A stretch of 64,000 nt of DNA from Symbiodinium sp. CCMP2592 (lineage: Eukaryota > Sar > Dinophyceae > Suessiales > Symbiodiniaceae): assembly GCA_905221615.1 (NCBI GenBank), contig CAJNDT010005446.1:124001-188000 (forward strand), read 5' to 3'. The position numbers and the translations under genes are program-made. The notes below the pieces were generated by a model, which searched no databases, was not told the DNA's origin, and was given only the letters and a program-made list of their open reading frames with translations. Numbering within the stretch: the first letter of the stretch is position 1; each line of letters opens with the position of its first letter. Of the stretch, positions 27,737 through 58,983 are shown piece by piece.

Positions 27737-28295
27737 CGGCCCTGGCCCTGAAGCTTTCTATTAGAATAGCTTCTCGATAATCGCGATTGAGATCCGGGTC
27801 CTGGCTGTGCACAACGGAATCGGTCCCCAAGGAATCCGAGATGTTGTACAGCTCCGGAGTATTTGAGGCTGGCTCAGGCTCTGGAGCTGGGTCTGGCTCT
27901 GAAGCAGGAACGGCTGGAACAGGCTGCTTAGCCTTCCCCTTTCCTTTGTTGCGCCCGGGGCTGCGCCCTCGGGCCACCATTGCTGTCGGGGCGAACTCCC
28001 AGGAGGGACTTATGGGACTAGACCCGACTATCATGGTGATTGCTTCCTTAAGCCACAAGTGAAGCCCTGTTGGGTGAATCCGTTCCTCCAACGCAATGGC
28101 CTGGTTGATGCGATCTTGGTACAAACCCATGATCTGCAGCACTGCCTCAGGGTCGAGGTCAGCGGTCGCGTCGTCAGCGGTAACCGCTTGAACCAGGGGA
28201 AGCGCGAGGTCCGTCGCTTCCAAGATGCGTTCCGAGACGGCTTTCCGTTCTCGGTGAAACTCCTGCGGCACTTCATCAACGATAGTGCCACACAT
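27621..28295 (-). CDS. Element 1 ORF2: unassigned linker protein
   Basis: 224 residues starting at an ATG, but the frame is open upstream across the gag stop, so a -1 shift from Gag is equally possible. Residues 1-90 are helical (ERILEATDLALPLVQ...LQIMGLYQDRINQAIALEER) and 100-150 are Lys-Gly and Pro/Glu-rich. The C-terminus ends in acidic sequence leading to the T7 run, where the frame passes to ORF3. No known domain is recognised. Its place between Gag and protease suggests a Gag-Pol linker. Confidence 0.55.
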   Translation of the reverse strand: MCGTIVDEVPQEFHRERKAVSERILEATDLALPLVQAVTADDATADLDPEAVLQIMGLYQDRINQAIALEERIHPTGLHLWLKEAITMIVGSSPISPSWEFAPTAMVARGRSPGRNKGKGKAKQPVPAVPASEPDPAPEPEPASNTPELYNISDSLGTDSVVHSQDPDLNRDYREAILIESFRARADDDLYDPFPGGSSDDGSPGSYNVAELDDFFRQASSRGS

Positions 28296-28369
28296 TCTAC
28301 AGAAGGTTCGGGACGTGATCCTCGAACTACCCCGATGGTCTGTTGCTTCATGTGAGCATACAGAGGGGT

Positions 28370-30433
28370 CTACGGTATATACATGTTCCCGTTTTTCTTG
28401 GGATACATGGCCGCAGTCCCTGCAGGTCTTGCGGACGTAATTCGCGGAACTCCCTTCTCCGCCAAGGGCGGATTCGGTGGAGTCTTTTTCTTCGCGCCCT
28501 TTCCCCTCGGGCGAGGGTTATAGGTTCCCTCAGGGATACCTATCGAGGCACGAGTTTCGCGATAGTATTGACCTCCTACACCCTGCTGAATGACATAATA
28601 TCTATTAAACCAGGTGAGGAAATCCTTAAGGTGCGCGGCAGGGCTCGGCTGGACGAGGGCCCAGCGCACGAACTCAGTCTTACGGGATACCTCCTCGTAA
28701 GTCTGGCCCTTGTGTTGACCGAGATTAAATCTTCGGTCGGCACCCTCCATCTGCATTGAGCTAGATGGTTGTGAGGGGGCAGCCTTGGATCTGGGTTCGC
28801 CTAGATCCCGCACCATATGGCCACTCGGGTCCATATCGTTCCCTGAGGGAACGTACAGGCCCCCGTCGGGGTCCTGTCGTGGCTCCACAATTGCTATGTG
28901 GGCCCGGGGTTTCCCTTTCCCTCCCTTAGAGGTAGGGAATTTGCACTCGGGGTCACCTGCCCAGTGACCAATAGCTCCACACCTGAGGCATTTCGACCGT
29001 GCCTTCAGGTTTTTCATTTTCTCGCGACGTTCGTCGAGCGTAAGGTGTGATCGCACTACCTTACCTTTCCCTTTTCCCTTGCGGCCCTTGCCCTTACGCC
29101 CCTTCGCTTTTCCGAATGCGGCGTTCGCGGCAAGCTGCAATTGGATCACATGGCCGCTGTCTGCATCCTCGGGATCAAGCTCCTCGAGGCAGTTAAGGGC
29201 AGTTGCCTCTTCTTCCTCGAGCTCGAATTCCTCGTAGCCCGGGTCCTCTTCCTCCTCCCCGGCGGGGTAGGAGTGAGGATCGTACTCAGGCTCGTCCCCA
29301 AAGGCGGGGTACGAGGTGTCGTCGTACTCTTCGGCATCGTCGCCGTCGTCCGGCGGCGCGTCGTCGTAGTACTGCGTCTCGTCTTCAGCGACGTAGGCGC
29401 GACGGTTAAAACCCTTAGACCTATTCTTACCGTAGCCCTTAGGGTTCCCGCGGCGGGCACCAGGATGGTGATGCGGTCGACGGTCCTGAAAGGTACCGCC
29501 ACCTAAGGAACGACCTTCCTTTAGGTGAACGCCGCTGTAGTGCTCCACTAGGGTAGCAGCAACTGCTTCAAAGCTCCGGTTGCTAGTGGTGCATGCCTTA
29601 ATGACAAGGCACTCTTGCCGAGTCAAACCGGAAAGCTCCAATAGCAATTCTACGCGCATCGGCTCGGAAAGCTCGATGCTGGCGTCGAGAGTTTTGAGCA
29701 GTTTCCACCAGCGTCGTCGTCGGCTGACGTACGACAGCATCGACTCGCCACCTTGGCGTGCGAGGACACCTTGCTTTTGGCCCGCACGGAAGAGCTCTCG
29801 AGCTTCTTCGGTCGCACGGGGGAAGACGACATTCCTCAACTTGGTGATGAAATCCCGGAGGCCACCAGGGGCAGTCAGGGATTCGATACCGATATCCCGG
29901 GCGAGTTCGAAGGCTTCGTCCCGAAGTCCTTCCAGCACTTTATGCACCATTTCGGTTCGTGCTTTAACCGCATAGGATGACATTTCGTCGGCAACCGGCA
30001 GTTCTGTGACCGAGTCAGGTGACTTCGGTGCAGATGGTCTCCTGCGAGATCCACCATCAGAGGCTGCTGCAGATGCCTCGGCTGCATCTATGTCGGGCCT
30101 GTCCTCGGGAGGTACAGGGGCAGTGGCTCCCGCAGTCGGACTCTGCTCCACGACGCGGCTCTCATCGTCACTGCCTTCTTCTTCTGGCTCCACGGTCTTC
30201 TTAGATTTGCTCCTGATGGCATCTTCGTACAGTTTAAGCCTCATAGAGGTCCTAAACTCCCAGTCGTGGAACGTACTGGGGGTGCCATCATATATGTAGC
30301 TCCCGCTACGAGTCTCAAGGGGAGTACTCGAGTAGGTGGAGCGACTGTACCGAAGACCGGCCACGGACATGCTTGGCGAAAGTTCGAAGGGAAAGAATTG
30401 AGAGGGAGGTATGCAATGGTAGGTATTGAGCAC
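28370..30433 (-). CDS. gag: Element 1 Gag, zinc-knuckle protein
   Basis: 687 residues from a GTG; the first ATG is at 30370 (MSVAGLRY...), the likelier start. Residues about 60-300 contain the helical Gag core (YAVKARTEMVHKVLEGLRDE ... LLLELSGL). An acidic stretch (350-430) and a Lys-Gly tract (440-460) precede a zinc knuckle C482-x2-C485-x4-H490-x6-C497, in which the last spacing is 6 instead of the usual 4. Near residue 575 LGQHKGQTYEEV...FVRWAL..L..FL.WF resembles the small ExoX-C-type domain, which is unusual in Gag. Gag forms the particle that packages element RNA. The stop at 28370 overlaps the ORF2 frame. Confidence 0.85.
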   Translation of the reverse strand: MLNTYHCIPPSQFFPFELSPSMSVAGLRYSRSTYSSTPLETRSGSYIYDGTPSTFHDWEFRTSMRLKLYEDAIRSKSKKTVEPEEEGSDDESRVVEQSPTAGATAPVPPEDRPDIDAAEASAAASDGGSRRRPSAPKSPDSVTELPVADEMSSYAVKARTEMVHKVLEGLRDEAFELARDIGIESLTAPGGLRDFITKLRNVVFPRATEEARELFRAGQKQGVLARQGGESMLSYVSRRRRWWKLLKTLDASIELSEPMRVELLLELSGLTRQECLVIKACTTSNRSFEAVAATLVEHYSGVHLKEGRSLGGGTFQDRRPHHHPGARRGNPKGYGKNRSKGFNRRAYVAEDETQYYDDAPPDDGDDAEEYDDTSYPAFGDEPEYDPHSYPAGEEEEDPGYEEFELEEEEATALNCLEELDPEDADSGHVIQLQLAANAAFGKAKGRKGKGRKGKGKGKVVRSHLTLDERREKMKNLKARSKCLRCGAIGHWAGDPECKFPTSKGGKGKPRAHIAIVEPRQDPDGGLYVPSGNDMDPSGHMVRDLGEPRSKAAPSQPSSSMQMEGADRRFNLGQHKGQTYEEVSRKTEFVRWALVQPSPAAHLKDFLTWFNRYYVIQQGVGGQYYRETRASIGIPEGTYNPRPRGKGAKKKTPPNPPLAEKGVPRITSARPAGTAAMYPKKNGNMYIP

Positions 30434-30482
30434 AGGCTACAGGCTACTGCGATCCGCGCAGATACAGGTCCCGGAGGTACAA

Positions 30483-30495
30483 GGCTCCGCTGCCA
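30483..30495 (-). promoter_or_regulatory. Primer binding site of element 1
   Basis: One base inside the 5' LTR the coding strand reads TGGCAGCGGAGCC. It begins with TGG, complementary to tRNA CCA ends, and closely resembles the initiator-Met-type PBS TGGTATCAGAGC used by many copia elements. Minus-strand DNA synthesis would start here. Confidence 0.65.
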
Positions 30496-30496
30496 G

Positions 30497-30645
30497 TTTG
30501 AGAAAACTGGTGGATCTTTTCGCCGACTGCGAAGCTATCTGAATATGACTCAAGGGCCCTAACGGCAGCGGGAAATATATACAGTTAACAGATGCATGTC
30601 ATGGCCATGGCTTCCTGTACATGTACAACAGAGGGTGCATTCACA
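30497..30645 (-). repeat. 5' LTR of element 1
   Basis: 149 bp, one mismatch to the 3' LTR. It is expected to hold the element promoter on the minus strand; no TATA-like box stands out beyond an AAATATATAC word. Confidence 0.92.
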
Positions 30646-44972: not shown

Positions 44973-45135
44973 CTTGTTTCCGCACTGTATCCGCCCTATC
45001 TGGTCGGGGAACTTGTCGTCCAAGACGGATAGCAGCTTCTCCTAAGCACACACCCACTTACAGGATCATGGGACGTAGTAACGGTTATAAGTACCTTGAT
45101 TGAGAGTGTCGGCGTTGGGGGGCGCTAAACCGTCT

Positions 45136-45320
45136 GCTCCACTCGCTCCACTCGCTCCACTCGCTCCACTCGCTCCACTTGCTCCACTCGTTCCACTCGC
45201 TCCAGTCGCTCCAGTCGCTCCACTCGCTCCACTCGTTCCACTCGCTCCCCTCGCTCCCCTCGCTCTACCGTTCCAGTCGCGAGTGGCGCGAGTGGAGCGA
45301 GTGGCGCGAGTGGCGCGACC
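45136..45320. repeat. 9-bp minisatellite with inverted tail
   Basis: About fourteen copies of CTCCACTCG-type units, then after a short spacer the reverse complement (GCGAGTGGCGCGAGTGGAGC). The whole would fold into a long hairpin. Open frames across it are repeat artefacts. Confidence 0.9.
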
Positions 45321-45380: not shown

Positions 45381-45385
45381 AGAAT
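45381..45385. repeat. Target site duplication, element 2 left
   Basis: AGAAT directly outside the left LTR, identical to 58979-58983. Confidence 0.92.
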
Positions 45386-45546
45386 TATAGTTGTTGTAAA
45401 CCACTGCACACACGCACTGTTGTATATACCCGTCCAAGTGATAACAGCACGGCTTGTACCATTCGGTCACTACCTTTTTCCTGTTAGAGCACTTGTGCCA
45501 CAATGCCGTACACACAACATGATACTTCACACGTGCACAAATTACA
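45386..45546 (-). repeat. 3' LTR of element 2
   Basis: 161 bp, identical by eye to 58818-58978. The coding strand begins TGTAATTTGTGCACGTG and ends CAACTATA. It contains a CACACACG-rich stretch. Confidence 0.95.
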
Positions 45547-46056: not shown

Positions 46057-49000
46057 TTAGCCGCGATCCCATCCCTGCTCCTGGTAGCGCTGTTGCTCTG
46101 CTCTGCGTGCATCAGCTTTGGCTTGTGCGATGCGAGAGCGTTCAGCGTTGCGCTGTCGCTCTTCGTATGCACGGCGTGCAATTCCGACCTGTTCCGCGAA
46201 TTTCCCACGGAGCCACTCAGTCCAGTCCTCGGCAGAATAGCCGAGTCCTGGATCGACGTAGAGTGCCTCTTCTGAGAAAGTAACAATCATCTTCACGATT
46301 TTGTGCTGGAGGAAAACATCTACGAATTTACGCAAACTGTATGCCCCTCCCAGCCACATGATGCAAAACGGATCGTCACTCACTGCGGAGATCAGGCCTG
46401 CCCTAAGGGCGGCTGGATTGCACTCGTGCAAGTAGAGCAACCGGGCAATCTCCTGGTTCCTTGGCCCTTCGGAGCTTCCACCATAGGTGCCGACAGCCAA
46501 CTGTCGTTGCTCCTTTGAACGGCCATGGTTCGGCAGGGCAGCATGCGTAAGCACGTCTTCGATGGCCAGAAACTCTCGATCGTACCCATTGCCGATGGAA
46601 CTCATAGTGTAGTCCACATCGTTATCGAAGCGGTGTACGATGCTTGTGTAGCCTCCTTTCGTAGCCATCTTGAGCTGCTGCCGGGCCTTGTCCAACGCCT
46701 CTGCGTCAAGCGACGTAGTTCCCCGCTGGGTTGAGGAATCTCTGGTCATTTCATGAATGACCTCCTCGGGCGTCAGCTGGGAACGTGGCTTGCCCGCAGC
46801 GGCAGCGGCGGCCTCTTCAGCGAACCAACGAGCTGAACGCGCTTTCTTGCGTGCGTTCTGTTGGGAAGGCTTCACGATGTGCACGCCACAGCTCAAGCAT
46901 ATCATCTGTCCCACAAGGTGTTGAGTACCGCAGTGGGGACATGCCCTGTGACGGCCACCCGTAACGGGGGCTGGAGGGAGAGCCAAAGGAGTCGATTCCG
47001 GCTGAGGCGGTGCCTGCTCGAACATCGGCTCGATCTTGACTTCTTCCTCCTTTTTCACATCGCCTTCGTCTGGCTCGATCTCGATCTCGACTTCAACGGG
47101 ATCTTCCGGCTCAAGGAAACGAACACGCTTTCTGGACTCAGTCGGTGCCTCCGGTGGAGAAGCGCCCCCCTGGTCCAATGTTGTGGTTTCCTCCGGAAGG
47201 AAGTCGGATGCTGTGGCGTCGTTGAGTGCAAGAGGTTCTGGTGATGATGCTAGTGGAGCAACCTCAACCTCAACTTCAACCATAGGCTCGTCTGCTGTTG
47301 CAGACGCTGCTGATTCGACCTCTTCATGGCCACCACTAAGTGGGGCTGAAGGTTCCTCCGGAATATCGGGGAACTGCTCCGGCTCAGCTGCTCCAGGATC
47401 GACAATGGGATCCTGGGCAGTCTCCGGAAGGATTGTGTCTTCCTCTTCGCCGGACTGCCGAGACCACAAAATGATGCCTTTGATCGTGTCTCTGATGTAG
47501 AGCACGCAACTCCCTGGCACCGGGTCGCGAGTGAGTATACCTTCGGAAGTTGTCTCAAACAGATAGGCATAGCGGTTCACCTCCTGAGTGTCGAGAACAA
47601 CTTCATAAGGAAGGTTTGCTCGGCTGCCAGCTTTATTCTCAAGCTCGCTCAGAGTGGCCTTCGCGAAGTAGTTGTGAAACTTCCCGCTCCGGTTGAACCC
47701 CGGCGTGAAGCCAGTAGAGAGAATATTGAAAGCTGAATCATGCGTGGTTCGATGATAGAGGCGTGGGGGAAACTCCCCAAGAGCAAGGAATGGCCTGCCT
47801 TGATAGGCGGCTGTAGGACCAAGCTCCTCACGCGTATCGTTCGTGAACCAATGCAGAGCAATCGAGGAATCAGTCACTTGATCTTTGATGCGTTCGCTGT
47901 GACCATGCGACGCACAAATCCACGACGGCCAAATGTCCGTCTCGATGAAGTCAGCACGTGGATCGGTGGGGAGGCCTGCCAAGTTAAACCTCGATTTGTT
48001 ATCGTAGGCGACTATGGACAAGATACCCCGTGTTCCCAGATCCACACGGTGCTTCTTCCACATGTGCTGAATGAGGTCTTGGATGCGTACCCATTTCCCG
48101 CGCCGTGAGCTGAGCTTCACGTTCGATCCTCGGACAGCACCTGTGAGGTAGCGCTCAATATAGGGTTTGAGGCCTAACTCAGGGAGGTGGTCCTTCGGGA
48201 TCGAATCGGGGAGGATCTGAACGATCTCGCTCCCCTCCGGATCCTCTGGGCACACATCCTCGTCGATGAAGCCACACATTTCCATCAGGTCCAAGTCATC
48301 TTGGTATTTTACCCCGATGTAGTCGTGTGGGCGAGCCCTTAAAAGGCCGCTGGAAGGGTCCCGGTCTTTCTTGGTCATGCCCTCTTTCGCCGCTGACAGA
48401 GTGCGGTGAGACTCTGTGCGATAAGGGATGGCCTCGATGACATCGTCAAAGGACACCTCCGGTACATCGCGAGATGATGCACTGCCAGATGGGCCGCCAC
48501 TAAGTGGGGCTGGATCCTTCCGCTCAGCACGGGCACGTGCTTCCGCCTGCTCTTTCGCGCGCTTTTGTGCCTGCTCGCGAGCTGTGGCCCATTCCCAATT
48601 CAGGACATCCTGAGGTACCTCACGCATTCCAGTGACCGGAAGATCAGGTGGAGGAACATAAGGGGATTCCCATGGATCAGGGCATTCATTCGCAGCTTCG
48701 CGAATCTCGGCCTGCCTTAAAAGGCGGCGGGAGAGCTGGGACCGGTACAGCGCCTTGTCGAAGACATACTGCATGGAATAAACCCGCGTTCCTTCTGGGT
48801 CGAAAGGGAAACGGCGGGCCAGCTCATCCAGCGTCTCTGCGGGCATCTTTGCGAATAAGTGGTCAGCTTGACACACTTTAATCCGCTGTCCGATCACAGA
48901 GGCCAAGGCTGCGCGATGCGTAGAGTCTTCGCGGAAGTGGTAGTGGTCGTGCTTTGGGATCTGGCATACGCTTTCTTTGAGAGAGGCGGTATACAACCCC

Positions 49001-52000
49001 CTGCTCCTTGCGTATCCGAGGAATTTTCGGATAGCTGTTCTGTATTCCGCTGGCAGCCCGTAGTCCAGTGGGTCGGCATCCGAGAGGATTTGTATCGAAC
49101 CCACTGTTGGCCTGCCCTGAAGGGCGGCTAGACGGCCAATTTCGCCACACACACGTGCGGCAATGTCCGCCCAGATCCCTTCCGCGGCAACGCCTTCAGG
49201 ACCAATCTGCCAGTGTGGCGTCCCTGGGTCGACGAAAACACCTCTGCGACCGCACAGTTCGTTGCCCATCCACACAACAACGATATCGACCTCGAGATGC
49301 AAGGGGTTTAACGATTCGTTGATGATCTGCGGCAAGAGCGTGTGAACTGCCTCAACGATCGAGTGGAGGTTGCCTCCCCAAATCGCCTTTTGCCGGACAT
49401 TCGTGTATTGCTGAAGGATATGACCAGGCCCCGTCAGAGCTTTAAAGTCTTCCGCCATCTCAACGAATGTTCTCGCCCCAGCCTTGAAAATGAGGGTAGA
49501 GTCGGAAACAATGATGCAGGCTTTTTCACGGCCACGGCTATCGCCGGGCTGGAAACGCGACAACCCCTCGTCGTTGATCCGTGCCACCTTAGGGAGGGCC
49601 TTATAGCCATGATCAACATCTCCCAGACACGTAGACAAAGCGGTTTGCGCGATTGCGCCTGTGTAGAGCTGTTTCACGCTCTCTTCCCAGTCACGGTCTG
49701 GGTTGAGTCCGAGCTCGTGTCCGAAGACACCGGCCCACATATGGTAGTGAGCCCACTCCCGCTTGATTGAGTCACCCGATGCGGCAATCGTCGCTGGCGC
49801 CGACGGCTTGTTCTCGCCTTCTGCTCGCACTCGGGGATCACTAATCATCTCTGGCGTGCTCTGATGAGCCGCTGCACAGGGGCAGGCAAGCACCTTCCTA
49901 AAGTTCGCAAGATTAGCAAGATGTGAAGATGTGAAATCCTCTAAATCATCATGATCTGCGACTTCGTGCTTGTAAGATGCCTTAGCGATCAGATGCTGGT
50001 TTCCTGAGCGGAAGCTTTCCTTAGCACAGTTCGCAAGTGGCAATGCCTGGAGCCCTGCGCACACCAGATATGCGTTTTCAAGTCGTGCAACTTCGGCATT
50101 AATTCCGTCGAACATGAATTCGTCGACGGGCCCACACAAGAGAACACAGAAGTTACTGGAAAACAAGTGAGCCAATTCAACAATCTCAACAAGACTCCTT
50201 TGTAACCTCCTCAAGTCACCTTTAGAGAGCGATGTCATCACCACCGTGACAAACGAAAGTGAAGTGATAATGACCGCTCCCCCCTCATCGCGAACAGTAG
50301 TGATGAGGCGGGTCAAAGGCAACCATTGTGATGGAGTTTCATGGCGAACCGCAATCCACCACCGTTCGAGTCCCAGACCCCCCTGATCGGTGCATGCAAT
50401 TGGCCTCGGCGAAAGCCGGGCTGGAGCAGCGACCGCAGCTGGTTGGGGCAGCCTGAACTTCAATATCTCCAATTGTTCTCTTACTTCGTTGTTAATACTA
50501 CCTACCTGGGAAGAAGTGAAAGCGATCAATCCAAAACGGGTGCCCTTCCAGGGCATCACGCAGTGGTGTAAGTCGGGGGCAAAGTACAACGGAGAGTGCT
50601 TTGTGTTGTGAGTTCCACCAGTAACAACGCTTCCATTGTCCTTAGTCTGGGTGGCCGGAGCTTGACCCGGCATCCCTTCAACCCACAACAAGCCTCCCGA
50701 AAAATCCCCGAAACTAATCGCGAAGTTCTCACTTCCCTTAAGGTTCCGTGAATCCGCATGCAACAAGGATTTGGCGTCACGATTCACCGCGATCGAAGTC
50801 CATGTGAAGTCGCGACGTGCATGTTTGCTGATCCACTCGTTCATGTATCTACACGCCAAAGGGTACCGTTTGGTGATGTTGGTAATCCCTTGCATTCCAC
50901 TGAACGAAAAGAAACCCCAATTGTGGTAATACGAATTGTCATTCGTGGTAAGACGAGACTTGCGTCTCTTGCTCACCTTCACTGGAAATTGTGATGCAAC
51001 TGATTGCAAACCCTCAAAACTAAAATCCTTAGCCTGAAGTAGAACCTCAGCAGTGGCTTCAAGATCTGGCCGGCCATGGCTGGCGGCTGCAATCTGAGGT
51101 TTCGCAACCAAATGACTGTCTGAGTCCTTGCCACCTTTGTTGGCAACAGTGGGGCACAGATTGTGGTTGATCAACCTGAGAGCGTGAAGCCACTTAGTTT
51201 TCTCGGCGAAGGGTTTTGTAAAGATATCGGCAACCTGTTCGAGCGTATCAACATTGACCATATCGAAATGTTCCACCTCGAACTGCTGCTTCAACCATCC
51301 AAAACTGATGTTCTGAGTGCGATCAGTGTGTCGCATCTTTTCACTGTCACCTTTGTGAACGATCGTGATCGTCGCTTGGTTGTCCTCAAGGAACTGAACG
51401 CGAAACTTGTCGCTCAAGCCCACATTCAAACCCTGAAGATTGGCTACCGATCGCCCACCTGGGATTCCCCCGTACCTGATCTCGTCAAGTTCGGGGTCAA
51501 CTCTTGCTAGAACACCATCGATCTTGATGGGTGGAGGTCTCTTTGGCCTAACCTGATGGTTGGCTGAATTGATCTCAACCTGTTGCCATAGGAAAATCCA
51601 AAGGCTGAGGCTGGGCAATCCCTGAGCGCGAACACCATGGTTAGCACTGATGACCTCGCTTTCTGTGCTTGACATCGTGATACTGGTCTGCTTCTTGGAA
51701 AAGGCATTCAATGGGTAGTAGGTGTTTGGCCCCACGAGATACAGTGCACAGCCTGAGGTTGATTTGCGATCATGTTCCCCAGACCAATCTGCATCACAGA
51801 ACAGCCAAAGCTTACACTCACTGATGCGATCCCCAATAAATCCCTGCATCCGAACATCAAGTGAAGAGTTGATGTAGCAGACAAGCCTGTGAAGTGCTGC
51901 ATCGCAGTCCCTGCTCCACTTCGTCACCCTGCTAGCGAGGCTTTGAGTAGCCCGCAGGAGATCCCATCGTGCCATCCTAGCGGCAAACAGGATTTTCATG

Positions 52001-55000
52001 AGAACCTTGCTAGCAATTGGTTGGAGGCGCCCAGATGGCTCTTCCCCCTCAGTAGGCTTAGCAATTCTGTTCTCTGAAAACGGAGTCGGAACATTGGTAA
52101 GGGACTGCTTCGAGACCTTAGCGAGATCACAGTACCTGTCCACACAAGAAATCAGGAAGTCTTTCATGTCGTATGTCATAACGTTCACGGGCTTATCCAT
52201 TGAAGGAATAGCGTCTTTGCAAATCGTGTCTGTTCCCTTGAACTTCTGTTCCTTGGCTTCCCTTTTGGCCTCGGCCTTAGATCTAGACGGCTTGCCTTTG
52301 GAGGCAGCTAGAGCGTGTCTGATCTTTTCGGCATCGTGACCTGGTAACGGGAACAAGGATCGGCCGGTCCACCACTCCTCGCGCTTAAGGTTGGGGTCAA
52401 GATTGACATCGTGTTCCTCAATCGGACCTTCATCGAAAGCGGTTACCCTGGTTGTTGACAAGTTTGGGAAAACCTCAATGTCCCTGTTGGTGGGAACATA
52501 CAACCTCTTCCTAGGATACACGTGATGACGAACAACTGCACCAAGCTCAGTGTCGACTTCCCAGAAGTCTTCTCGAACTTGTGGCCTCGGGTCACCCCGG
52601 GCTGGAGCAGCCGTCTTCTTGTCGAACACGTATGCAAACGGATGTGCTGATCTGGGAAGTTGTACCTGGGTTTTCTCAAAATGATTACAACCAAAGTACC
52701 TACCAAAAGGCTCAGGAGGATCCATGTCGATGACACTCTCAACTGTCGCCCATCCCTTAGCGAGATTCTTAGTTGGCCCAGCCATCTTGAAATCATCAAC
52801 GTAGATGACCAAAAGAAGATCAAGTTCAGCGTGATAGAAAATGGACTGCCAGATCTCGGGCAACACCGGGGTCCACCCTACGGTCTTCAGCTGGTCTTCA
52901 CAGTGTTTTTCCCAGATTCCGCCAGAATCCGGGTGTCCGTAGAGGGCTAACATTAAAGGTACGACTGGATCGGAAAATCCTCGCCATTCCTTAGGCCACC
53001 GGTTGCGCGGAAGTCTGACCCGAGTTTCTACCCCTTTAAATAATGCTTGCGTGTAAGCCTGCTTCGCGTCAGCTTGCTGCTTCGAGTACCCTGGCTGGCT
53101 ACCGAAGACGTCGATGACTTTAGCGGCCTCCATTGAAGCGGGGCTGGATCCGAGTTCAGAGAAGATCGCATGATCGTTATGTTCATCTGAAACCCGATTC
53201 CCCTGGAACACGCTACGTCCCTTCCACTTCCTGTCCGGGTGTCCTTCTGGAAGTTCGTCGCCCTTGATGCTGCAGATTTCGAAGATTCTTCCGAAGTGGG
53301 TTTTGATGCCTTTCCTGATTGCTTCAGCGGAAACATCACGAAACTCACGAACCTTCGAATGCAACCAACAAGATTTATCGACTAGCTTCTGCCACTCTTT
53401 GTCCATAGCTTGCTTGGCTGCTGGGGTGCGATCAATCTCAGCTTGGTTGACGACCCTGGCTACCAACGCATACTCAAGAGCAGAAAGTTCCCCTAACTTT
53501 TCCCAGTAGAGGGTTGCCATCCTGACACGATGAGGCTCGTTCTGACAAGTCATTACGGGCATAGCTGGAGAAGCATCCCTTTCGGCCTCTGCTCGGGCGG
53601 CTTCCTCGCGACGGCATTTAGACTGATACCTTTCGATGTCAGCCTCGCGCTGATTGCGGGACATCATGTGCCACTCCTCGCTAGAGGTGTCTGGGGGTCG
53701 CTTCGAGCCCTTCTTGTTTCGAACAAGTCTGATCCCATCCCAGTTGTATCCTTCAGGCACAGGTTTGCCGTCGGGCATGGTGTAGGGATCATGTCTCTTT
53801 GGAGGCGGTTTCGGTTTGGAGCTATCTGACGGCTTGTCAGTTGATGATCCACGGCCATCCCCTTCCGGGGGGCTGGAACCACTACCTGACTTACCATCAG
53901 CCTCAGGGAGTTTGTCCTCATCAGGAACAGAAATGGGTTCGGAAGCTCTCTGCCTAAGCTTTTCAAGCTCTCCCTCCACGTCTCTGCCCTCTGGGTTCCA
54001 AGGATCAAGTTCCTTAGGACCGAAGATGTCGTCGATACCACCTGAAGGAGGGAGTGTAGTCTCCTTAGCTGGGAAAACACAGTCTTGATCCTGAAGCTCG
54101 GGTGGATCACCCCCCTGATCCTCAGAAACCGCGAGAGGAAAAACCATATCCCCTATCGGAAGTTCCATGCGCTTGACCCGAATGATTCTCAGGTCGTCAT
54201 TGTCAATTGCATCTTGGCTACCCTTTAAGGGAGCTACGAGGTATTCCTGTCTCCAAATGAAGCCAGGTTGAATGTGGTATCCTAAGAAGATACCGTCTTC
54301 GGCCTTTGGGTCGAACTTAGATGCATTTGTGATGTTCTCTTTGGGATTGTTCCAATAGAGAACCTTGGCACCAAAAGGAATGAGCTTACCGCTAAACCCT
54401 TCACCGAACCTTTCGTCCCATGGGATCTTCGCGGTGTCCATCCTTTTGGACAAGTTTAGAGCCATAGTGTGATGTTGAGCAGCTAAGGGCCAGAGCTTCG
54501 TTGGAAGTCCTGCCTGCAGCAAGTTCGCCCGTGTGCCCTCGAGCACAGTTCGAATCTCTCTCTCAACAACAGACTTGCTCTCATCGACGTAAGGTCGTGA
54601 GGTGTTGTGACGAACTTTGTATTTTCCAGTAGCATTCTTGAGTTCGGGGGCATTGTCAGAGTAAATGATACCTGGTTCATCATCTACAGCGAAGTAGTGC
54701 AACAGGCAATCATAAACCTCTTCCGACTCCTTCGTACCTGCAGGGTACACATAACGAAAGTTAGTGAACACGTCCTTAACCACAAGAGCAACTTTCTCAC
54801 CTTCGATCCCAAAATCACGCAAGTCCTTGGTCACAATGTGATCAATCGTCACGTGGTCTCCGAACTTCTTCGAAAAGATAGTGGAGCTCCCCCCTCGCTT
54901 TCTGGCATGTGGCGCTAGCATTTTGGCCTTTTGGCATACCTTGCAGAAAGGGTTCTTAGGACGGTGGGTGAATTTGTGCTCCGGGCTATTGGCCTGCAGC

Positions 55001-55323
55001 TTGAGCTGGGCTGAACGTTTTTCGTCCTTTGGGTCAGCTTCAGCTTCTCTTTCGCTGTCAGGCTCCGGCTCGGGGTCATCAACAGGTCTTTTAAAGATCG
55101 TTACACTGAGAATGCAGGCATCAGAAGGGAGCTTGGCTACCCGATTGTCCAACGTCCTTACATCCACGTCTTTTTCGATCTCCTGCCATTTCTTGACATA
55201 AGTCCAAGTACTCCGGATGACGTGTTTTGGAAACCTTGTAGCAGGTTTTCTAAAGGTTTTGGGAAAGTGCCCCACGATCATCTGTGGAAAGGAAGGATGC
55301 GAAACCCAACCTGGTTTGTTCAA
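46057..55323 (-). CDS. pol: Element 2 giant Pol polyprotein: IN-RT-RH-oxygenase-SGNH-Tpt1-zinc ribbon
   Basis: 3088 residues from a TTG; the frame is open to 55503 and overlaps the end of Gag-Pro, so entry by a -1 shift is likely. The integrase finger is H116-x3-H120...C127-x2-C130, with core D161, D223 and E254. RVT_2 RT spans about 640-900, with D752 and YVDD at 841-844. RNase H has D1177/D1179, E1221 and D1314, with VADIFTKPF near 1364. Beyond the usual copia end come a 2OG-Fe(II)-oxygenase-like domain (about 1455-1605), an SGNH-hydrolase-like domain (1930-2140), a charged helical linker, a Tpt1/KptA-like domain (2385-2622), acidic linkers, a C2-C2 zinc ribbon (C2795, C2798, C2809, C2812) and a charged helical tail. 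It is uninterrupted over 9.3 kb. Whether the tail is cleaved off by the protease is unknown. Confidence 0.93.
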   Translation of the reverse strand: MNKPGWVSHPSFPQMIVGHFPKTFRKPATRFPKHVIRSTWTYVKKWQEIEKDVDVRTLDNRVAKLPSDACILSVTIFKRPVDDPEPEPDSEREAEADPKDEKRSAQLKLQANSPEHKFTHRPKNPFCKVCQKAKMLAPHARKRGGSSTIFSKKFGDHVTIDHIVTKDLRDFGIEGEKVALVVKDVFTNFRYVYPAGTKESEEVYDCLLHYFAVDDEPGIIYSDNAPELKNATGKYKVRHNTSRPYVDESKSVVEREIRTVLEGTRANLLQAGLPTKLWPLAAQHHTMALNLSKRMDTAKIPWDERFGEGFSGKLIPFGAKVLYWNNPKENITNASKFDPKAEDGIFLGYHIQPGFIWRQEYLVAPLKGSQDAIDNDDLRIIRVKRMELPIGDMVFPLAVSEDQGGDPPELQDQDCVFPAKETTLPPSGGIDDIFGPKELDPWNPEGRDVEGELEKLRQRASEPISVPDEDKLPEADGKSGSGSSPPEGDGRGSSTDKPSDSSKPKPPPKRHDPYTMPDGKPVPEGYNWDGIRLVRNKKGSKRPPDTSSEEWHMMSRNQREADIERYQSKCRREEAARAEAERDASPAMPVMTCQNEPHRVRMATLYWEKLGELSALEYALVARVVNQAEIDRTPAAKQAMDKEWQKLVDKSCWLHSKVREFRDVSAEAIRKGIKTHFGRIFEICSIKGDELPEGHPDRKWKGRSVFQGNRVSDEHNDHAIFSELGSSPASMEAAKVIDVFGSQPGYSKQQADAKQAYTQALFKGVETRVRLPRNRWPKEWRGFSDPVVPLMLALYGHPDSGGIWEKHCEDQLKTVGWTPVLPEIWQSIFYHAELDLLLVIYVDDFKMAGPTKNLAKGWATVESVIDMDPPEPFGRYFGCNHFEKTQVQLPRSAHPFAYVFDKKTAAPARGDPRPQVREDFWEVDTELGAVVRHHVYPRKRLYVPTNRDIEVFPNLSTTRVTAFDEGPIEEHDVNLDPNLKREEWWTGRSLFPLPGHDAEKIRHALAASKGKPSRSKAEAKREAKEQKFKGTDTICKDAIPSMDKPVNVMTYDMKDFLISCVDRYCDLAKVSKQSLTNVPTPFSENRIAKPTEGEEPSGRLQPIASKVLMKILFAARMARWDLLRATQSLASRVTKWSRDCDAALHRLVCYINSSLDVRMQGFIGDRISECKLWLFCDADWSGEHDRKSTSGCALYLVGPNTYYPLNAFSKKQTSITMSSTESEVISANHGVRAQGLPSLSLWIFLWQQVEINSANHQVRPKRPPPIKIDGVLARVDPELDEIRYGGIPGGRSVANLQGLNVGLSDKFRVQFLEDNQATITIVHKGDSEKMRHTDRTQNISFGWLKQQFEVEHFDMVNVDTLEQVADIFTKPFAEKTKWLHALRLINHNLCPTVANKGGKDSDSHLVAKPQIAAASHGRPDLEATAEVLLQAKDFSFEGLQSVASQFPVKVSKRRKSRLTTNDNSYYHNWGFFSFSGMQGITNITKRYPLACRYMNEWISKHARRDFTWTSIAVNRDAKSLLHADSRNLKGSENFAISFGDFSGGLLWVEGMPGQAPATQTKDNGSVVTGGTHNTKHSPLYFAPDLHHCVMPWKGTRFGLIAFTSSQVGSINNEVREQLEILKFRLPQPAAVAAPARLSPRPIACTDQGGLGLERWWIAVRHETPSQWLPLTRLITTVRDEGGAVIITSLSFVTVVMTSLSKGDLRRLQRSLVEIVELAHLFSSNFCVLLCGPVDEFMFDGINAEVARLENAYLVCAGLQALPLANCAKESFRSGNQHLIAKASYKHEVADHDDLEDFTSSHLANLANFRKVLACPCAAAHQSTPEMISDPRVRAEGENKPSAPATIAASGDSIKREWAHYHMWAGVFGHELGLNPDRDWEESVKQLYTGAIAQTALSTCLGDVDHGYKALPKVARINDEGLSRFQPGDSRGREKACIIVSDSTLIFKAGARTFVEMAEDFKALTGPGHILQQYTNVRQKAIWGGNLHSIVEAVHTLLPQIINESLNPLHLEVDIVVVWMGNELCGRRGVFVDPGTPHWQIGPEGVAAEGIWADIAARVCGEIGRLAALQGRPTVGSIQILSDADPLDYGLPAEYRTAIRKFLGYARSRGLYTASLKESVCQIPKHDHYHFREDSTHRAALASVIGQRIKVCQADHLFAKMPAETLDELARRFPFDPEGTRVYSMQYVFDKALYRSQLSRRLLRQAEIREAANECPDPWESPYVPPPDLPVTGMREVPQDVLNWEWATAREQAQKRAKEQAEARARAERKDPAPLSGGPSGSASSRDVPEVSFDDVIEAIPYRTESHRTLSAAKEGMTKKDRDPSSGLLRARPHDYIGVKYQDDLDLMEMCGFIDEDVCPEDPEGSEIVQILPDSIPKDHLPELGLKPYIERYLTGAVRGSNVKLSSRRGKWVRIQDLIQHMWKKHRVDLGTRGILSIVAYDNKSRFNLAGLPTDPRADFIETDIWPSWICASHGHSERIKDQVTDSSIALHWFTNDTREELGPTAAYQGRPFLALGEFPPRLYHRTTHDSAFNILSTGFTPGFNRSGKFHNYFAKATLSELENKAGSRANLPYEVVLDTQEVNRYAYLFETTSEGILTRDPVPGSCVLYIRDTIKGIILWSRQSGEEEDTILPETAQDPIVDPGAAEPEQFPDIPEEPSAPLSGGHEEVESAASATADEPMVEVEVEVAPLASSPEPLALNDATASDFLPEETTTLDQGGASPPEAPTESRKRVRFLEPEDPVEVEIEIEPDEGDVKKEEEVKIEPMFEQAPPQPESTPLALPPAPVTGGRHRACPHCGTQHLVGQMICLSCGVHIVKPSQQNARKKARSARWFAEEAAAAAAGKPRSQLTPEEVIHEMTRDSSTQRGTTSLDAEALDKARQQLKMATKGGYTSIVHRFDNDVDYTMSSIGNGYDREFLAIEDVLTHAALPNHGRSKEQRQLAVGTYGGSSEGPRNQEIARLLYLHECNPAALRAGLISAVSDDPFCIMWLGGAYSLRKFVDVFLQHKIVKMIVTFSEEALYVDPGLGYSAEDWTEWLRGKFAEQVGIARRAYEERQRNAERSRIAQAKADARRAEQQRYQEQGWDRG
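46879..46941 (-). other. Zinc-ribbon segment of element 2 polyprotein
   Basis: Residues 2795-2812, CPHCGTQHLVGQMICLSC, form CxxC-x10-CxxC, a typical zinc ribbon. A hairpin of the element 2 family (46953-46974) lies directly before it in coding order and supplies the residues APVTGG. Confidence 0.8.
47458..48171 (-). other. Tpt1/KptA-like RNA 2'-phosphotransferase domain in element 2
   Basis: Residues 2385-2622. In order: GKWVRIQDLIQHM (family: GWxxVDxLL), GILSIVAYDNKSRFNL (family: I..vV..sdKkRF.L), ICASHGHS (family: IRAxQGHS), RLYHRTTHDSAFNILSTGF (family: LYHGT...I...GL), YEVVLDTQEV and GILTRDPVPGSCVLYI (family: gVWLT..VPp.yL). Tpt1/KptA removes a 2'-phosphate from RNA using NAD. Two normally conserved basic sites are altered: the N-terminal Arg-His pair is not evident and IRA is ICA. 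Catalysis is therefore uncertain; RNA or ADP-ribose binding remains possible. A related broken copy is at 18524-19041. Confidence 0.75.
48904..49536 (-). other. SGNH/GDSL-hydrolase-like domain in element 2
   Basis: Residues about 1930-2140. Block I IIVSDST (S1942 as candidate nucleophile after D1941), block II WGGNLHSI (G1984), block III VDIVVVWMGNEL (N2021) and block V KHDHYHF (D2126-x2-H2129) appear in the family order with plausible spacing. SGNH enzymes are esterases or acyl-hydrolases. I infer a fold match with catalytic residues retained; the substrate is unknown. Confidence 0.65.
50509..50961 (-). other. 2OG-Fe(II) dioxygenase-like domain in element 2
   Basis: Residues about 1455-1605. 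SIAVNRDAKSLLHADSRNLK gives the HxD pair (H1522, D1524); ISFGDFSGGLLWVEG matches the strand after it; and DLHHCVMPWKGTRFGLIAF supplies the distal His (H1586 or H1587) and the 2-oxoglutarate-binding Arg (R1596). The HxD...H...R layout is that of double-stranded beta-helix oxygenases, with overall similarity in style to TET/JBP-type members linked to mobile elements. The substrate could be DNA, RNA or protein. Confidence 0.7.
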
Positions 55324-55442: not shown

Positions 55443-57458
55443 TTAGGCCGCTGAACGGGGAAAACCCGATGTTGCCTGGATGACTGGCGAATGAGCCGCC
55501 TTCTCATCCTTGGCGGGAACAGCGATTGTACCATCCCCAATTACCGGGACTCGTCCGCGCAGCTTGCAGTAAAGTTTCCGGCCTTCGGGTGTCACGAAGT
55601 AAGGCGTCTTCCCTGCGTACCAATGGAAATCGAAACCCTCATCCATACATCTCCTACCAACAGAGCACACCGGCGGCGTTGAATCTAGCACGTAGCATTC
55701 GAGGATTTTGTTGATTTCAGGGACCTCTAGCTTAACGGCTTCATTACCTTTTACCGGCCCGTTGGCGGTGATCAACGAAACAGGACGTGAGGCAGGTTCA
55801 ATGGGCACGTCGGGGAAGTGAGTTCTGCAGTCCGACTTGCTGATGAGGTCCTCTTCACTTCCGGTGTCCGCTAGGAATTCTAAGCCGGGGACCAGACCTG
55901 CACATGACGGACGTGCAAGTCGCTCGCACTCCTCGCAGAGGAAGCCTTCCTCCATGCATTCATACCCGCATCCCGCAGGCGTTTCGTGAGTCATGCATTC
56001 GATCATGGTGGCAAACTGCTTTGCCCACACAAGAGCCCTTTTAAGATCCTTAGGATTCGAGCGTGGACATGCCTCGACAGTGGGATAGACTTCATCATAA
56101 ACCCTGGGAAGGTAGGCATGCTTTCTCTGCTTTCCTTCCGGTTCGATGGCAATCATTTCTACGGTGCTGTCGAAACTCACCTTAGGGAGTTCTTGCATGT
56201 AGAAGATCGTCTTACCTACCCATGTGCTGCCGGGTCCTTTGGTTGGGGTCTTCCTCCAGTTGTAGATCTTGTTTCCAACAAAAGGGGAGACCGGCAAAAC
56301 CTGCTCGAGCTTAGCTTGGCTCCTAAGCTTCTTGGGGTTAACAGGACATGAATTGTCAGGAACATACCAATCTGTTCGGTACTTCTTGTGATGGCGGATG
56401 ATTTTGTTGCCGGTGAAGTCTACCTCCCAGTAGTCCTCGTCGTGTGACGCTGCCATAGCGAGCTTTTGCGAGATCTCAAGATCCGCTGTATTCTCGAACG
56501 CGATGGCGCATGCGGCCGTCTTTGGGGCCTTGTCACTTGACTTAGCCCTGGGACTTCTCCCTCTGCGCGGAGCAGGAGAGTTGGCCCTGGGTGACCCTGG
56601 CTTTGGAGCTGCCGGGGCTGCTTCGGACTTGGGTGCGGGAGCTGACGGCTTCTCTATGTCCTTATGCTGAAACCGACATTTATCACCCTTGTTGCAGTTG
56701 CCTTCTTTCCAGAACTTGCATGTCACGTTGATTTTCTTCTTCGGTTTGTCGCCTTTGGGGGACAATGATCTCTTCTTGTGAAGGAAAGGGCAGTTATTGC
56801 CTCGCTTGCAAGTTCCTTTGAGGAAATCGTAGCATACTCCCTTTGGGCTAGGTGTCCTAGGCTTGCTGGGAGACTGGGATCTACCTTTGCTGGGTGATCT
56901 TGGCCTTGGGCTCTGCGATCTGCCACGGCCTCCTCTTGAAGAGGGGCTGGAAGTTCGGCCAGGAGACTTTGAAGCAGGGGCACCGTACTTATCTCCGTGA
57001 GATCTTGCGATGCGGTCACGGTTCTTGCGTTTGCGCTCTCGGGTCAAAAGATCCTTAAGTGACTTCACAAGAAACCTGTACGTATGCTGATCCGTGCCCT
57101 CTGCTGCCCTGTCGTAAATCTCAAGATCGTACTTTAGCCTCTTGGACTGCCTGAGTTCACGAAGGAAAATGTCTCTTAGGGTCGTTTCGTCCGGTGTGTG
57201 GCTAAGTCCAGACATGACAGATTCCCAGTTGCTAATAAACACTGAAAGGTCGTCATTGATTAACCTTACTTTCAGCAGGTCCTCCACGGAGTACAGTGAT
57301 CCAACCTCCTCGTTCGTCTTGAAGTACTGATCGAAGAGGTAGAGCACCTGCCGTCCTCGTACCGCCCTGAATTTCGCCGCTTCTGTCTCCTTAAAAATGA
57401 GGATTTCTCGGGAGAGTTCTCCCCTAGCGACTTTGGTGAGTGCAGCAAGAAGTTTCAA
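55443..57458 (-). CDS. gag-pro: Element 2 Gag C-terminal part, CCCH fingers and protease
   Basis: 671 residues from a TTG that lies inside the overlap with the upstream ORF; the true coding probably enters by a +1 shift (CTT G AAA near 57459). Residues 1-160 continue the Gag core (FKETEAAKFRAVRGRQVLYL ...). An Arg-Ser-Pro region (165-205) leads to two CCCH zinc fingers, C209-x7-C217-x5-C223-x3-H227 and C247-x7-C255-x5-C261-x3-H265, in place of the usual CCHC knuckle. A retropepsin follows, with LADTGSEEDLIS (D531-T-G-S). It would package RNA and cleave the polyprotein. A T4C4 run (55457-55464) lies in the overlap with Pol and is a candidate slip site. Confidence 0.85.
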   Translation of the reverse strand: MKLLAALTKVARGELSREILIFKETEAAKFRAVRGRQVLYLFDQYFKTNEEVGSLYSVEDLLKVRLINDDLSVFISNWESVMSGLSHTPDETTLRDIFLRELRQSKRLKYDLEIYDRAAEGTDQHTYRFLVKSLKDLLTRERKRKNRDRIARSHGDKYGAPASKSPGRTSSPSSRGGRGRSQSPRPRSPSKGRSQSPSKPRTPSPKGVCYDFLKGTCKRGNNCPFLHKKRSLSPKGDKPKKKINVTCKFWKEGNCNKGDKCRFQHKDIEKPSAPAPKSEAAPAAPKPGSPRANSPAPRRGRSPRAKSSDKAPKTAACAIAFENTADLEISQKLAMAASHDEDYWEVDFTGNKIIRHHKKYRTDWYVPDNSCPVNPKKLRSQAKLEQVLPVSPFVGNKIYNWRKTPTKGPGSTWVGKTIFYMQELPKVSFDSTVEMIAIEPEGKQRKHAYLPRVYDEVYPTVEACPRSNPKDLKRALVWAKQFATMIECMTHETPAGCGYECMEEGFLCEECERLARPSCAGLVPGLEFLADTGSEEDLISKSDCRTHFPDVPIEPASRPVSLITANGPVKGNEAVKLEVPEINKILECYVLDSTPPVCSVGRRCMDEGFDFHWYAGKTPYFVTPEGRKLYCKLRGRVPVIGDGTIAVPAKDEKAAHSPVIQATSGFPRSAA

Positions 57459-58752
57459 GGGTGAGGAATTTCTCGGGGTCTCGAAGGGATTCCTGCGATG
57501 CGTCTTTGTCGTAGGCCTTCATCACCCATTTAAACGCCTCATCAGGTGAATCTGATGCTGCCCTGACCGCTTCCCTAGCTGCCGTTTTCCACGAACGATA
57601 CGACTCTGGACTTGGAAACTCCGGAAGGCTGATGGACTCTGCTTCTTTCACTTTGGGTTTGTCAGCATCGACTTTGCTCTCACCCCTTATGTTTCTTAGG
57701 CTTTGAAGAATTGCCATTTGGGTCTCTAGGAGACCTGTGTTGAAAGCGTCCGTCCCTGGCGTGCCGGAATCGGCCGCTGGAGGGGCCGCTGTTCCCGGCG
57801 CTGCCTGGGAAGGTCCTGCCTTGGGGATTGAAGATGCTGTTGCAGACGGAATGGACTGAGCATTCAAACCTCCTGGATTCATTGACTCGAACAGACATCT
57901 GGCGCCTTGGGGGATAACGTTCGGCATTGAGAACATGGGCGCTTGAGGAGCTTTGGGGACGACAGAGGGACCTGCAGGGGTGCTTGGAGCAGGCACTGGC
58001 TGACTCTTTGGAGTAGCTGGGTTGTACTGATCCAAGACCTTCTCTAGTGCAGTTTCCGCAGAATCCAACCTGTCCTGAAGCTCTTCATTCTGTTCCCTAC
58101 ATACAGCAAGGGACGCCTCATACTCTTCTTTCTGCCTGTTCCTAAACAACTCAAAGTGTGCTTGGAACTGTTCAACCATGACTTCCTGGGAATTCTCGCT
58201 GTGCCGTCTCGCCTGTTCTTCGAGGTTCTGTGCAAAGCGTGATTCCGCCAAATGTTGATCCAATGCGTCTGTGATTCGGCTTTGTTGAAGTTCCGCTAAC
58301 TCTTGACGCAACCTTTGATCTTCGTCATAGGAATGCGCTTGACTTAAAGTCATTTCCGACAATAGGAGCCTTTCGCGATTTGCCGCCTTGAACTCGCTTT
58401 GTGCCAAGGCTGCTTGCAGTTCTGCTACCACTTCAAGGTGGTTTCGTTCTGCTCTGTGCTCCAAGTCAGCTGTATGAATTGCGGATGCTTCTTGATAGGT
58501 CAGCATGTGTTGCCTGTGTCTTGCTTCTGCCTGAGCCTCTAGTTCTCCGACTTCCAGTCTGATCTGGTTAACGTGTACTTCAACACTATATTGTGGTGCG
58601 AAGACGTTGAATTGTTGGACTGAGGCTGGTGCCGGGAAAACTAAGCCGGGGGGGCCGCTCCCTGTATGGCCACCCGTGACCGGGGGCTGTAAAGGGTTCA
58701 CGGTGCTTGTAACTGTATCCATACTTGCAGGAATAAGTTCCGGTTCGCTCAT
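57424..58752 (-). CDS. gag: Element 2 Gag N-terminal part, coiled coil
   Basis: 442 residues from an ATG 65 bp inside the 5' LTR, so the start is well placed. Residues 60-243 form a long coiled coil (EVGELEAQAEARHRQHMLTY ... RLDSAETALEKVLDQY), 245-335 are Pro/Ala-rich, and 365-435 start the Gag core (LPEFPSPESYRSWKTAAREA ...). The frame ends in TAG just after LTLE, whereas the next ORF continues the domain (LLAALTKVARGELSREI), so a +1 frameshift joins them. Coiled coils probably drive particle assembly. A family hairpin (58668-58689) encodes PPVTGG near the N-terminus. Confidence 0.85.
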   Translation of the reverse strand: MSEPELIPASMDTVTSTVNPLQPPVTGGHTGSGPPGLVFPAPASVQQFNVFAPQYSVEVHVNQIRLEVGELEAQAEARHRQHMLTYQEASAIHTADLEHRAERNHLEVVAELQAALAQSEFKAANRERLLLSEMTLSQAHSYDEDQRLRQELAELQQSRITDALDQHLAESRFAQNLEEQARRHSENSQEVMVEQFQAHFELFRNRQKEEYEASLAVCREQNEELQDRLDSAETALEKVLDQYNPATPKSQPVPAPSTPAGPSVVPKAPQAPMFSMPNVIPQGARCLFESMNPGGLNAQSIPSATASSIPKAGPSQAAPGTAAPPAADSGTPGTDAFNTGLLETQMAILQSLRNIRGESKVDADKPKVKEAESISLPEFPSPESYRSWKTAAREAVRAASDSPDEAFKWVMKAYDKDASQESLRDPEKFLTLETSCCTHQSR

Positions 58753-58817
58753 GCGCTGATTGATTGTATTGTAACCAACCAGTTGTGACCAGGCCGTAGG
58801 CTATACGGCTGATAACC
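58753..58817 (-). promoter_or_regulatory. Leader and weak primer binding site of element 2
   Basis: Directly after the 5' LTR the coding strand reads GGTTATCAGCCG. It resembles the copia PBS (TGGTTATCAG) but lacks the leading T unless the LTR end is redefined. The rest of the 65-bp leader has no ATG in frame. Confidence 0.4.
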
Positions 58818-58978
58818 TATAGTTGTTGTAAACCACTGCACACACGCACTGTTGTATATACCCGTCCAAGTGATAACAGCACGGCTTGTACCATTCGGTC
58901 ACTACCTTTTTCCTGTTAGAGCACTTGTGCCACAATGCCGTACACACAACATGATACTTCACACGTGCACAAATTACA
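58818..58978 (-). repeat. 5' LTR of element 2
   Basis: 161 bp, identical by eye to the 3' LTR. Expected site of the minus-strand promoter. Confidence 0.95.
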
Positions 58979-58983
58979 AGAAT
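58979..58983. repeat. Target site duplication, element 2 right
   Basis: AGAAT, matching 45381-45385. Confidence 0.92.

Follow-up and report, generated by a model that had tools for sequence, protein, structure and literature searches.

The window analysed here, a stretch of 64,000 nucleotides from contig CAJNDT010005446.1 of Symbiodinium sp. CCMP2592, contains a Ty1/copia retrotransposon of 13,593 bp on the minus strand. The element is bounded by two long terminal repeats (LTRs), the 5' LTR at 58818..58978 and the 3' LTR at 45386..45546, each of 161 bp, on the minus strand and identical at 161/161 positions, and it is flanked by a 5-bp target-site duplication, AGAAT, at 45381..45385 and 58979..58983, as expected of this class of elements. 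Between the LTRs the minus strand has three overlapping open frames: one of 458 codons in frame 1, one of 691 in frame 2 and one of 3,148 in frame 1 again. The first (442 aa, 57424..58752) represents the gag-like N part and matched no family; the second, in the other reading frame (671 aa, 55443..57458), combines CCCH zinc fingers (Pfam zf-CCCH, 9.1e-10, and zf_CCCH_4, 3.6e-13, both above cut-off) with an ADTGSEED protease-like motif and a sub-threshold gag-asp_proteas match (0.11). The third is open from 55503 down to 46060, a run of 3,148 codons that is beyond chance, and counted from its first TTG at 55323 it encodes a polyprotein of 3,088 aa (46057..55323) in which pol is followed by a long additional segment, referred to here as the cargo. 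The 21-base sequence that we take to be the dinoflagellate spliced leader has 429 exact matches in the assembly (217 forward, 212 reverse) compared with 0 for a backward control, which identifies the genome as that of a dinoflagellate; the initial annotation of the locus as a dinoflagellate copia element agrees with this count, with the LTRs and duplication, and with the order of pol.

Within this single frame, integrase, reverse transcriptase (RT) and RNase H follow one another in the Ty1/copia order, as judged from motifs read by eye: we take H116/H120/C127/C130, D161, D223-N224, YVDD 841, D1177 and ADIFTK 1365 to be the characteristic residues of these enzymes. The RT region (residues 697-868, 52720..53235, minus strand), with YVDD at residue 841, gave a sub-threshold RVT_2 match (0.0098), and a SH3_retrovirus match upstream of it was likewise sub-threshold (0.0018); no Pfam integrase profile matched pol, and these two matches, below cut-off, fit their expected places. 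The ADIFTK motif at the RNase H end occupies residues 1365-1370 (51214..51231, minus strand), and the frame runs on without interruption for 1,718 residues, in accordance with the approximately 1700 described initially. The cargo begins just below 51214, so that the bounds then assigned to it, 46057..50961, fall slightly short at the upper end.

The cargo appears to comprise, in order, a putative 2-oxoglutarate (2OG)-Fe(II) oxygenase, a putative SGNH hydrolase, a Tpt1/KptA-type ADP-ribosyltransferase, a zinc ribbon and a conserved C-terminus, all on the minus strand. The putative oxygenase (residues 1470-1640, 50404..50916) carries the HxD...H iron ligands and the 2OG-binding Arg (H1522, D1524, H1587 and R1596), and it is followed by a fast-evolving middle region (residues 1661-1900, 49624..50343). 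The putative SGNH hydrolase (residues 1901-2170, 48814..49623) presents Ser, Gly, Asn and Asp-x-x-His in the proper order (S1942, G1983, N2021, D2126 and H2129). The KptA domain (RNA 2'-phosphotransferase; residues 2398-2596, 47536..48132), with HxT at 2524-2526 and R2568, is matched by Pfam PF01885 (PTS_2-RNA) with E-values of 1.3e-8 for the whole protein and 5e-10 for the slice (40.1 bits against a curated cut-off of 26), and independently at 38.5 bits in the second family described below, which makes its assignment by Pfam in two families certain. The remainder consists of an acidic Pro-rich linker seen in the translation (residues 2621-2780, 46984..47463), a zinc-ribbon-like CxxC...CxxC segment (residues 2795-2813, 46885..46941) and a C-terminal conserved region (residues 2814-3088, 46060..46884). 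Profile searches, proposed as a check when the three enzyme domains and the zinc ribbon were first named, recovered PTS_2-RNA, whereas the oxygenase and SGNH domains are plausible by motif and had no profile match. Zn_Ribbon_1 stayed below cut-off (0.0051), but all four Cys of the ribbon are kept in a copy of the second family (L038); a text pattern for the ribbon failed in 2 of 7 copies.

The distribution of the cargo was surveyed across the assembly (1.098 Gb, 5,383 contigs), with only the best candidates of each search being scored. With the cargo as query, the best 28 of 4,984 candidates were all full length, 98-100% identical and stop-free. With RT-RNase H as query, the best 68 of 3,489 candidates were full length, and 67 of these 68 were followed by an oxygenase match after 190-214 nt, shortened in some copies, a result that answers the initial concern that other copies might lack the region. 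The exception (G000:C4881:528645-530588) has a stop codon, and the next listed oxygenase match on its strand lies 28 kb off. Of the best 40 of 232 LTR candidates, 32 can be matched up on the same strand as 16 pairs with a spacing of 12.4-14.5 kb, each enclosing an oxygenase match (16/16), and the other 8 are single, distant or opposed; pairs approximately 13.4 kb apart recur in the genome. Diverged relatives with other layouts may lie outside the scored set, which holds 150 of 4,872 oxygenase candidates. The copia family is both young and multicopy.

A search with the KptA domain revealed a second family. By hand count, the best 150 of 322 candidates fall into two groups. The 39 at 41-42% identity make up family 2, and 18 of them sit in open frames that span 3,014-3,192 aa; the remaining 111 have 58-100% identity and represent family 1, to which the window element belongs, and its decayed relatives. 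Family 2 frames measure 3,186-3,192 aa in intact copies and are shorter in others. In L038 the same domain order is found in one open frame, with 57% identity to the window element over residues 1-1642 and 29% over residues 1861-3069. In bins of 100 residues up to residue 1400, identity is 47-86% in 13 of 14 bins and 36% in one; it is 33% and 43% over 1401-1600, 30% over 1601-1700, 12% over 1701-1800 and 27% over 1801-1900, and then 30-39% in SGNH and 32% and 49% in KptA. Across its cargo, family 2 is 29-44% identical to the window element. The C-terminal region also aligns. The catalytic columns of the putative oxygenase and SGNH domains are the same in family 2, with Ala replacing the Gly beside the SGNH Asn. 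Given the same order and the same catalytic columns in both families, the module was most likely in place before they split, and it is a family trait integral to the element. One copy with a short frame on contig C61 (L040), considered as a third family, proved to be a family 2 copy with a broken frame.

The ratio of non-synonymous to synonymous differences per site (pN/pS) provides a measure of constraint on the cargo, and it is 0.078 for the window and six copies. For the window and five copies, it is 0.032 for RT-RNase H and 0.076 for the cargo, and by part 0.065 for SGNH, 0.023 for the linker, 0.058 for KptA, 0.138 for the acidic linker and 0.042 for the zinc ribbon with the C-terminus (residues 2781-3088). 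The smaller set excludes the C5274 copy, which has an RT frameshift and 7 stops (RT ratio 0.77 with it, 0.032 without) and is retained in the six-copy figure. In family 2, comparison of L038 with the natural frames of L040 gave 0.117 and 0.153 for the integrase-RT-RNase H pieces, 0.21 and 0.086 for the oxygenase pieces, 0.193 for the middle region, 0.078 for SGNH, 0.132 for the linker, 0.093 for KptA (at a pS of 0.61), 0.165 for the acidic linker and 0.137 for the zinc ribbon with the C-terminus; L038 and the near-identical L039 differ by too few changes to be usable (in the oxygenase, 1 synonymous and 3 non-synonymous). The cargo ratio is thus about twice that of RT-RNase H in family 1 and similar to it in family 2. 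These low ratios show that purifying selection maintains the cargo, at a strength approaching that seen for RT-RNase H. Maintenance had been claimed initially on the basis of the identical LTRs, which indicate only a recent insertion; the claim itself stands on pN/pS. Taken jointly, the architecture of a cargo-bearing copia pol and the selection acting on it are, in our assessment, close to certain. A chance fusion, passively hitch-hiking host sequence or an assembly artefact could be imagined, host-sequence transduction by retroelements being common, but the copy survey contradicts it: the oxygenase adjoins 67 of the 68 scored RT copies, and the module is present in two families, in frame and with pN/pS near 0.08, so that we consider such an origin extremely improbable.

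A separate observation concerns a block of low synonymous diversity in the family 1 copies at window positions ~49147-50406 (residues 1640-2059), where seven 60-codon windows have pS values of 0.007-0.066, compared with 0.055-0.235 for the remaining cargo. The block overlaps the lowest family 2 protein identity and may reflect recombination or a constrained RNA element.

The active site of the KptA domain is altered. In place of the Arg-His-Arg-Arg tetrad it has R2398, G2399, R2445 and K2548 (R-G-R-K), a substitution present in 6 of 6 fetched family 1 copies and in both family 2 copies checked (L039 left out). Residue equivalences, counted by hand on PDB alignments (7yw4, 7kw8 and 6e3a), relate these positions to R18 (R2398), H19 (now G2399), R68 (R2445) and R121 (now K2548) of the C. 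thermocellum enzyme. In the crystal structure, the transferred phosphate is held by R18, K66, R68 and Tyr80; H19, R18 and R121 touch the junction 3'-phosphate, which is the sole contact of H19; and the phosphates of nicotinamide adenine dinucleotide (NAD+) are caged by R121, R139 and R140 (PMC6333775). Both families keep the equivalents of R18, K66 (K2443) and R68, together with the HxT motif and the arch Arg139 (R2568), and the Tyr80 place is taken by His in family 1 and by Gln in family 2, as also in the Runella enzyme. Since the transferred-phosphate contacts are mostly retained (3/4) and the junction 3'-phosphate contacts mostly altered (2/3), we infer that the substrate has changed, most simply to a terminal phosphate. 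With its essential tetrad altered in both families, the domain is not a standard 2'-phosphotransferase; the module originally named as such keeps the KptA fold by Pfam and lacks the standard tetrad, which KptA domains elsewhere in the same genome (L003, L017 and L023) do have. A reading as a step-2-dead enzyme, in which the third tetrad Arg was taken as that of 'IRA-QGHS' and seen as C/G, was dropped: yeast 7yw4 also has 'WICATQGHS', and the third Arg is that of 'KxRF' (kept) and the fourth that of 'RxHVH' (Lys here).

Overall, the best explanation is a dinoflagellate copia family with an inherited accessory enzyme module acting on nucleic acid, to which we assign a probability of roughly 0.5. 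The selected retention of three enzyme-like parts suggests that the element chemically edits nucleic acids during transposition, and the reading we favour is that of a nucleic-acid-modifying module which travels in the particle and includes a re-aimed KptA. Co-translated with pol, the module would be packed into the particle, where the element's protease would free its parts to act on the element's own RNA or complementary DNA (cDNA); such a cis-acting role is possible rather than probable. KptA would use NAD+ to ADP-ribosylate, or to take off phosphate, probably at nucleic-acid ends and not at tRNA splice junctions, because two of the three residues contacting the junction 3'-phosphate are replaced; ADP-ribosylation of 5'-phosphorylated RNA ends is an activity of Tpt1 enzymes (PMC6582358). 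The oxygenase would oxidise a base, whether methylated or unmodified, or some other group within the same nucleoprotein, and the hydrolase would strip an acyl or acetyl group or direct the particle to a membrane.

The module might instead act in trans against host control, the released cargo altering the host's RNA, its DNA or its signalling molecules and thereby letting new copies escape; an alarm based on NAD+/ADP-ribose, cytosine methylation and small-RNA silencing are the proposed targets. Single-enzyme precedents have been considered in the light of how hosts control transposons (PMC5890265, PMC9289625, PMC12730594), and KptA occurs in the polyproteins of a few RNA viruses (PMC9503650). 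However, fusion to pol would favour action inside the particle, and the trans role is rather doubtful.

Several observations weigh against a particle-borne editing module with a re-aimed KptA. Its packaging, cleavage, expression and activity are predictions. In family 1, the middle region has a pN/pS of 0.657 (0.66 when rounded) at a pS of only 0.016, closer to neutral, and the oxygenase has the highest ratio of the three enzyme domains (0.15). In the KptA domain, the G and K substitutions may have left a fold that is dead or able only to bind, since human TRPT1 loses 5'-end ADP-ribosylation when any one tetrad residue is changed to alanine (PMC6582358). The loss of the junction 3'-phosphate contact would be only partial, R18 being kept, and the R121 change may affect NAD+ binding, since R121 also holds the NAD+ phosphates; the Arg140 place, next to R2568, is Ala, so that one of the three Arg of the NAD+ cage remains, the other two places being Lys and Ala. 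The altered tetrad would suit a largely non-catalytic module, with the KptA fold serving to bind RNA ends or NAD+ and SGNH to bind lipid, forming a targeting or assembly tail that replaces an envelope-like third open reading frame (ORF3). In line with this, the SGNH esterase of ZfL2-1, a long interspersed nuclear element (LINE), turns over slowly and has been proposed to serve in membrane targeting (PMC3905857). Nevertheless, the two families share the catalytic columns of the oxygenase and SGNH parts as well as most KptA residues that contact phosphate or NAD+, which would be unusual for pure scaffolds, and a non-catalytic module seems unlikely.

The evidence for the names of the other two enzymes has to be weighed in the same way. 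The oxygenase pattern fits 12% of shuffles (25% for family 2) and is weak alone. Neither the oxygenase nor the SGNH part matched Pfam, NCBIfam or PHROGs, or had a fitting structure match in the PDB, and searches of IMG/VR with the whole cargo and with the oxygenase and SGNH alignments found no viral relative. The oxygenase slice matched no TET/JBP or AlkB Pfam profile at E up to 10, in a search where HMMER filters drop most weak matches. With hhalign, the oxygenase alignment scored 4.26 against YbiX-type sequences (PKHD family, E. coli type; 79 used, 2 of 81 dropped for stops), compared with up to 8.38 for 40 column-shuffled versions, and SGNH scored 1.79 against a TesA set, compared with up to 7.98 for shuffled versions; an unrelated control, KptA against TesA, gave 9.47, and these tests have low power (effective depth of 1.4 sequences for the oxygenase). 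One or both parts could accordingly be unrelated dinoflagellate-specific domains that resemble these enzymes by chance. Against such an error, the SGNH regular expression fits a fraction of only 0.00015 of 20,000 shuffles (0.015%), and none of 5,000 for family 2; its residues, like those of the oxygenase, are the same in L038, and the blocks HADS-N-LKGS and HC--P--G-RF are among the best kept of the oxygenase region. A misnaming is thus improbable in our view. Profile searches found neither enzyme and both names rest on motifs; on that basis we regard SGNH hydrolase as a likely name for residues 1901-2170 and 2OG-Fe(II) oxygenase as a reasonably likely one for residues 1470-1640.

The capture of accessory enzymes by mobile elements is known, and the portions of the literature cited here offer several points of comparison. 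LINE and DIRS elements of Symbiodinium bearing a DNA methyltransferase (DNMT) are likewise retroelements of dinoflagellates whose coding region has captured, and conserved, an enzyme that modifies nucleic acid; they belong to other element classes and carry another enzyme, one and not three, and the abundant copia elements are, according to that study, without DNMT (PMC5890265). Orchid Ty3/gypsy elements pair an LTR retrotransposon with a 2OG-Fe(II) oxygenase, an AlkBH5-like RNA N6-methyladenosine (m6A) demethylase active in vitro, but there the enzyme occupies a separate open reading frame and has clear AlkB homology, whereas the element described here is a copia with a pol-fused domain, no Pfam 2OG match and two more enzymes; the text drawn on reports no domain gain in plant copia (PMC9289625). 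In bdelloid rotifers, LTR elements carry GDSL/SGNH or DEDDy proteins as a separate ORF3, with intragenomic variation consistent with neutrality, in contrast to the low pN/pS found here, and the portions of that report used here mention no KptA or oxygenase (PMC5408684). The SGNH esterase ORF1p of CR1/L2 LINEs, with measured esterase activity, is another SGNH hydrolase in a retrotransposon, but in a gag-like position (PMC3905857). KptA inside a polyprotein has parallels in some positive-strand RNA viruses, and KptA is also found in a few large DNA viruses; the carriers there are viruses, and the pertinent text does not contain the terms retrotransposon, retroelement or transposon (PMC9503650). 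Compared with cellular Tpt1/KptA, the domain shares the fold by Pfam and most phosphate- and NAD+-contacting residues, and differs in its tetrad (R-G-R-K for R-H-R-R) and its long inserts (PMC6333775). Finally, fungal TET/JBP elements also combine a transposon with a 2OG oxygenase, but these are DNA transposons and Helitrons, the putative oxygenase here has no TET/JBP match, and TET/JBP was found in no retrotransposon according to the part of the report cited (PMC12730594).

Neither a KptA domain in a retroelement nor the trio of oxygenase, SGNH and KptA was found when open-licence full-text papers were searched, a body of text that leaves out most subscription papers and all preprints. What appears to be new here is the combination of enzymes, their fusion to copia pol and the altered KptA. 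Single-enzyme retroelements have already been informative on how transposons meet silencing, and the present element makes it testable whether ADP-ribosylation of nucleic-acid ends figures in the retroelement life cycle. Dinoflagellates have unusual DNA modification, reportedly including 5-hydroxymethyluracil in Breviolum, and a transposon-borne oxygenase in such an organism is therefore a direct lead.

A separate listing of KptA matches in the same genome consists mostly of copies of one other type of this domain, with nearly equal scores, many of them in open frames of 663-667 aa. One such frame (L023) combines KptA (140.7 bits) with a PARP-like stretch below cut-off, and several copies stand in head-to-tail units. 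In one unit (L037, G000:C890:315000-324999), two domains of one frame clear the cut-off, RVT_1 at 79.1 bits and UCH (ubiquitin C-terminal hydrolase) at 33.8 bits, and endonuclease and zinc-finger matches stay below it. Since successive KptA copies are spaced 10.1 kb apart with the RT frame between them, this second type apparently belongs to the same LINE as that RT, in an upstream frame. A standard-tetrad KptA apparently carried by a LINE of this genome would imply that KptA was captured more than once; the full proposal, in which retrotransposition in this dinoflagellate also draws on NAD+ chemistry, with the copia polyprotein supplying a nucleic-acid ADP-ribosyltransferase in the form of a KptA redirected from tRNA splice junctions to the ends of RNA or cDNA, within a three-enzyme editing module with the oxygenase and SGNH, is rather doubtful.

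Further features were noted in and around the element. A W-E-V-D...H-H stretch occurs twice, at pol residue 918 (window 52572) and at residue 341 of the second frame (window 56438), with 48% identity over 29 residues (E 1e-4), possibly a duplicated motif. Just after the 5' LTR, positions 58806-58817 read GGTTATCAGCCG, without the TGG of the usual primer site; GGTTATCAGCCG may match an internal stretch of a tRNA, the arrangement used in half-tRNA priming. A 9-base repeat array lies just past the 3' LTR at window 45109-45288. The window also holds a second copia element (19154-30645) with LTRs of 149 bp (99%) and a pol at 19469-24547 (RVT_2, 3.2e-12); it has no long cargo after RNase H, and blastp at E up to 1 matched nothing between the two pol proteins. 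Before this pol, a frame at 24663-26090 contains a GNRHRS motif and, below threshold, a match to the RapZ C-terminal family (0.07), and may hold another captured domain.

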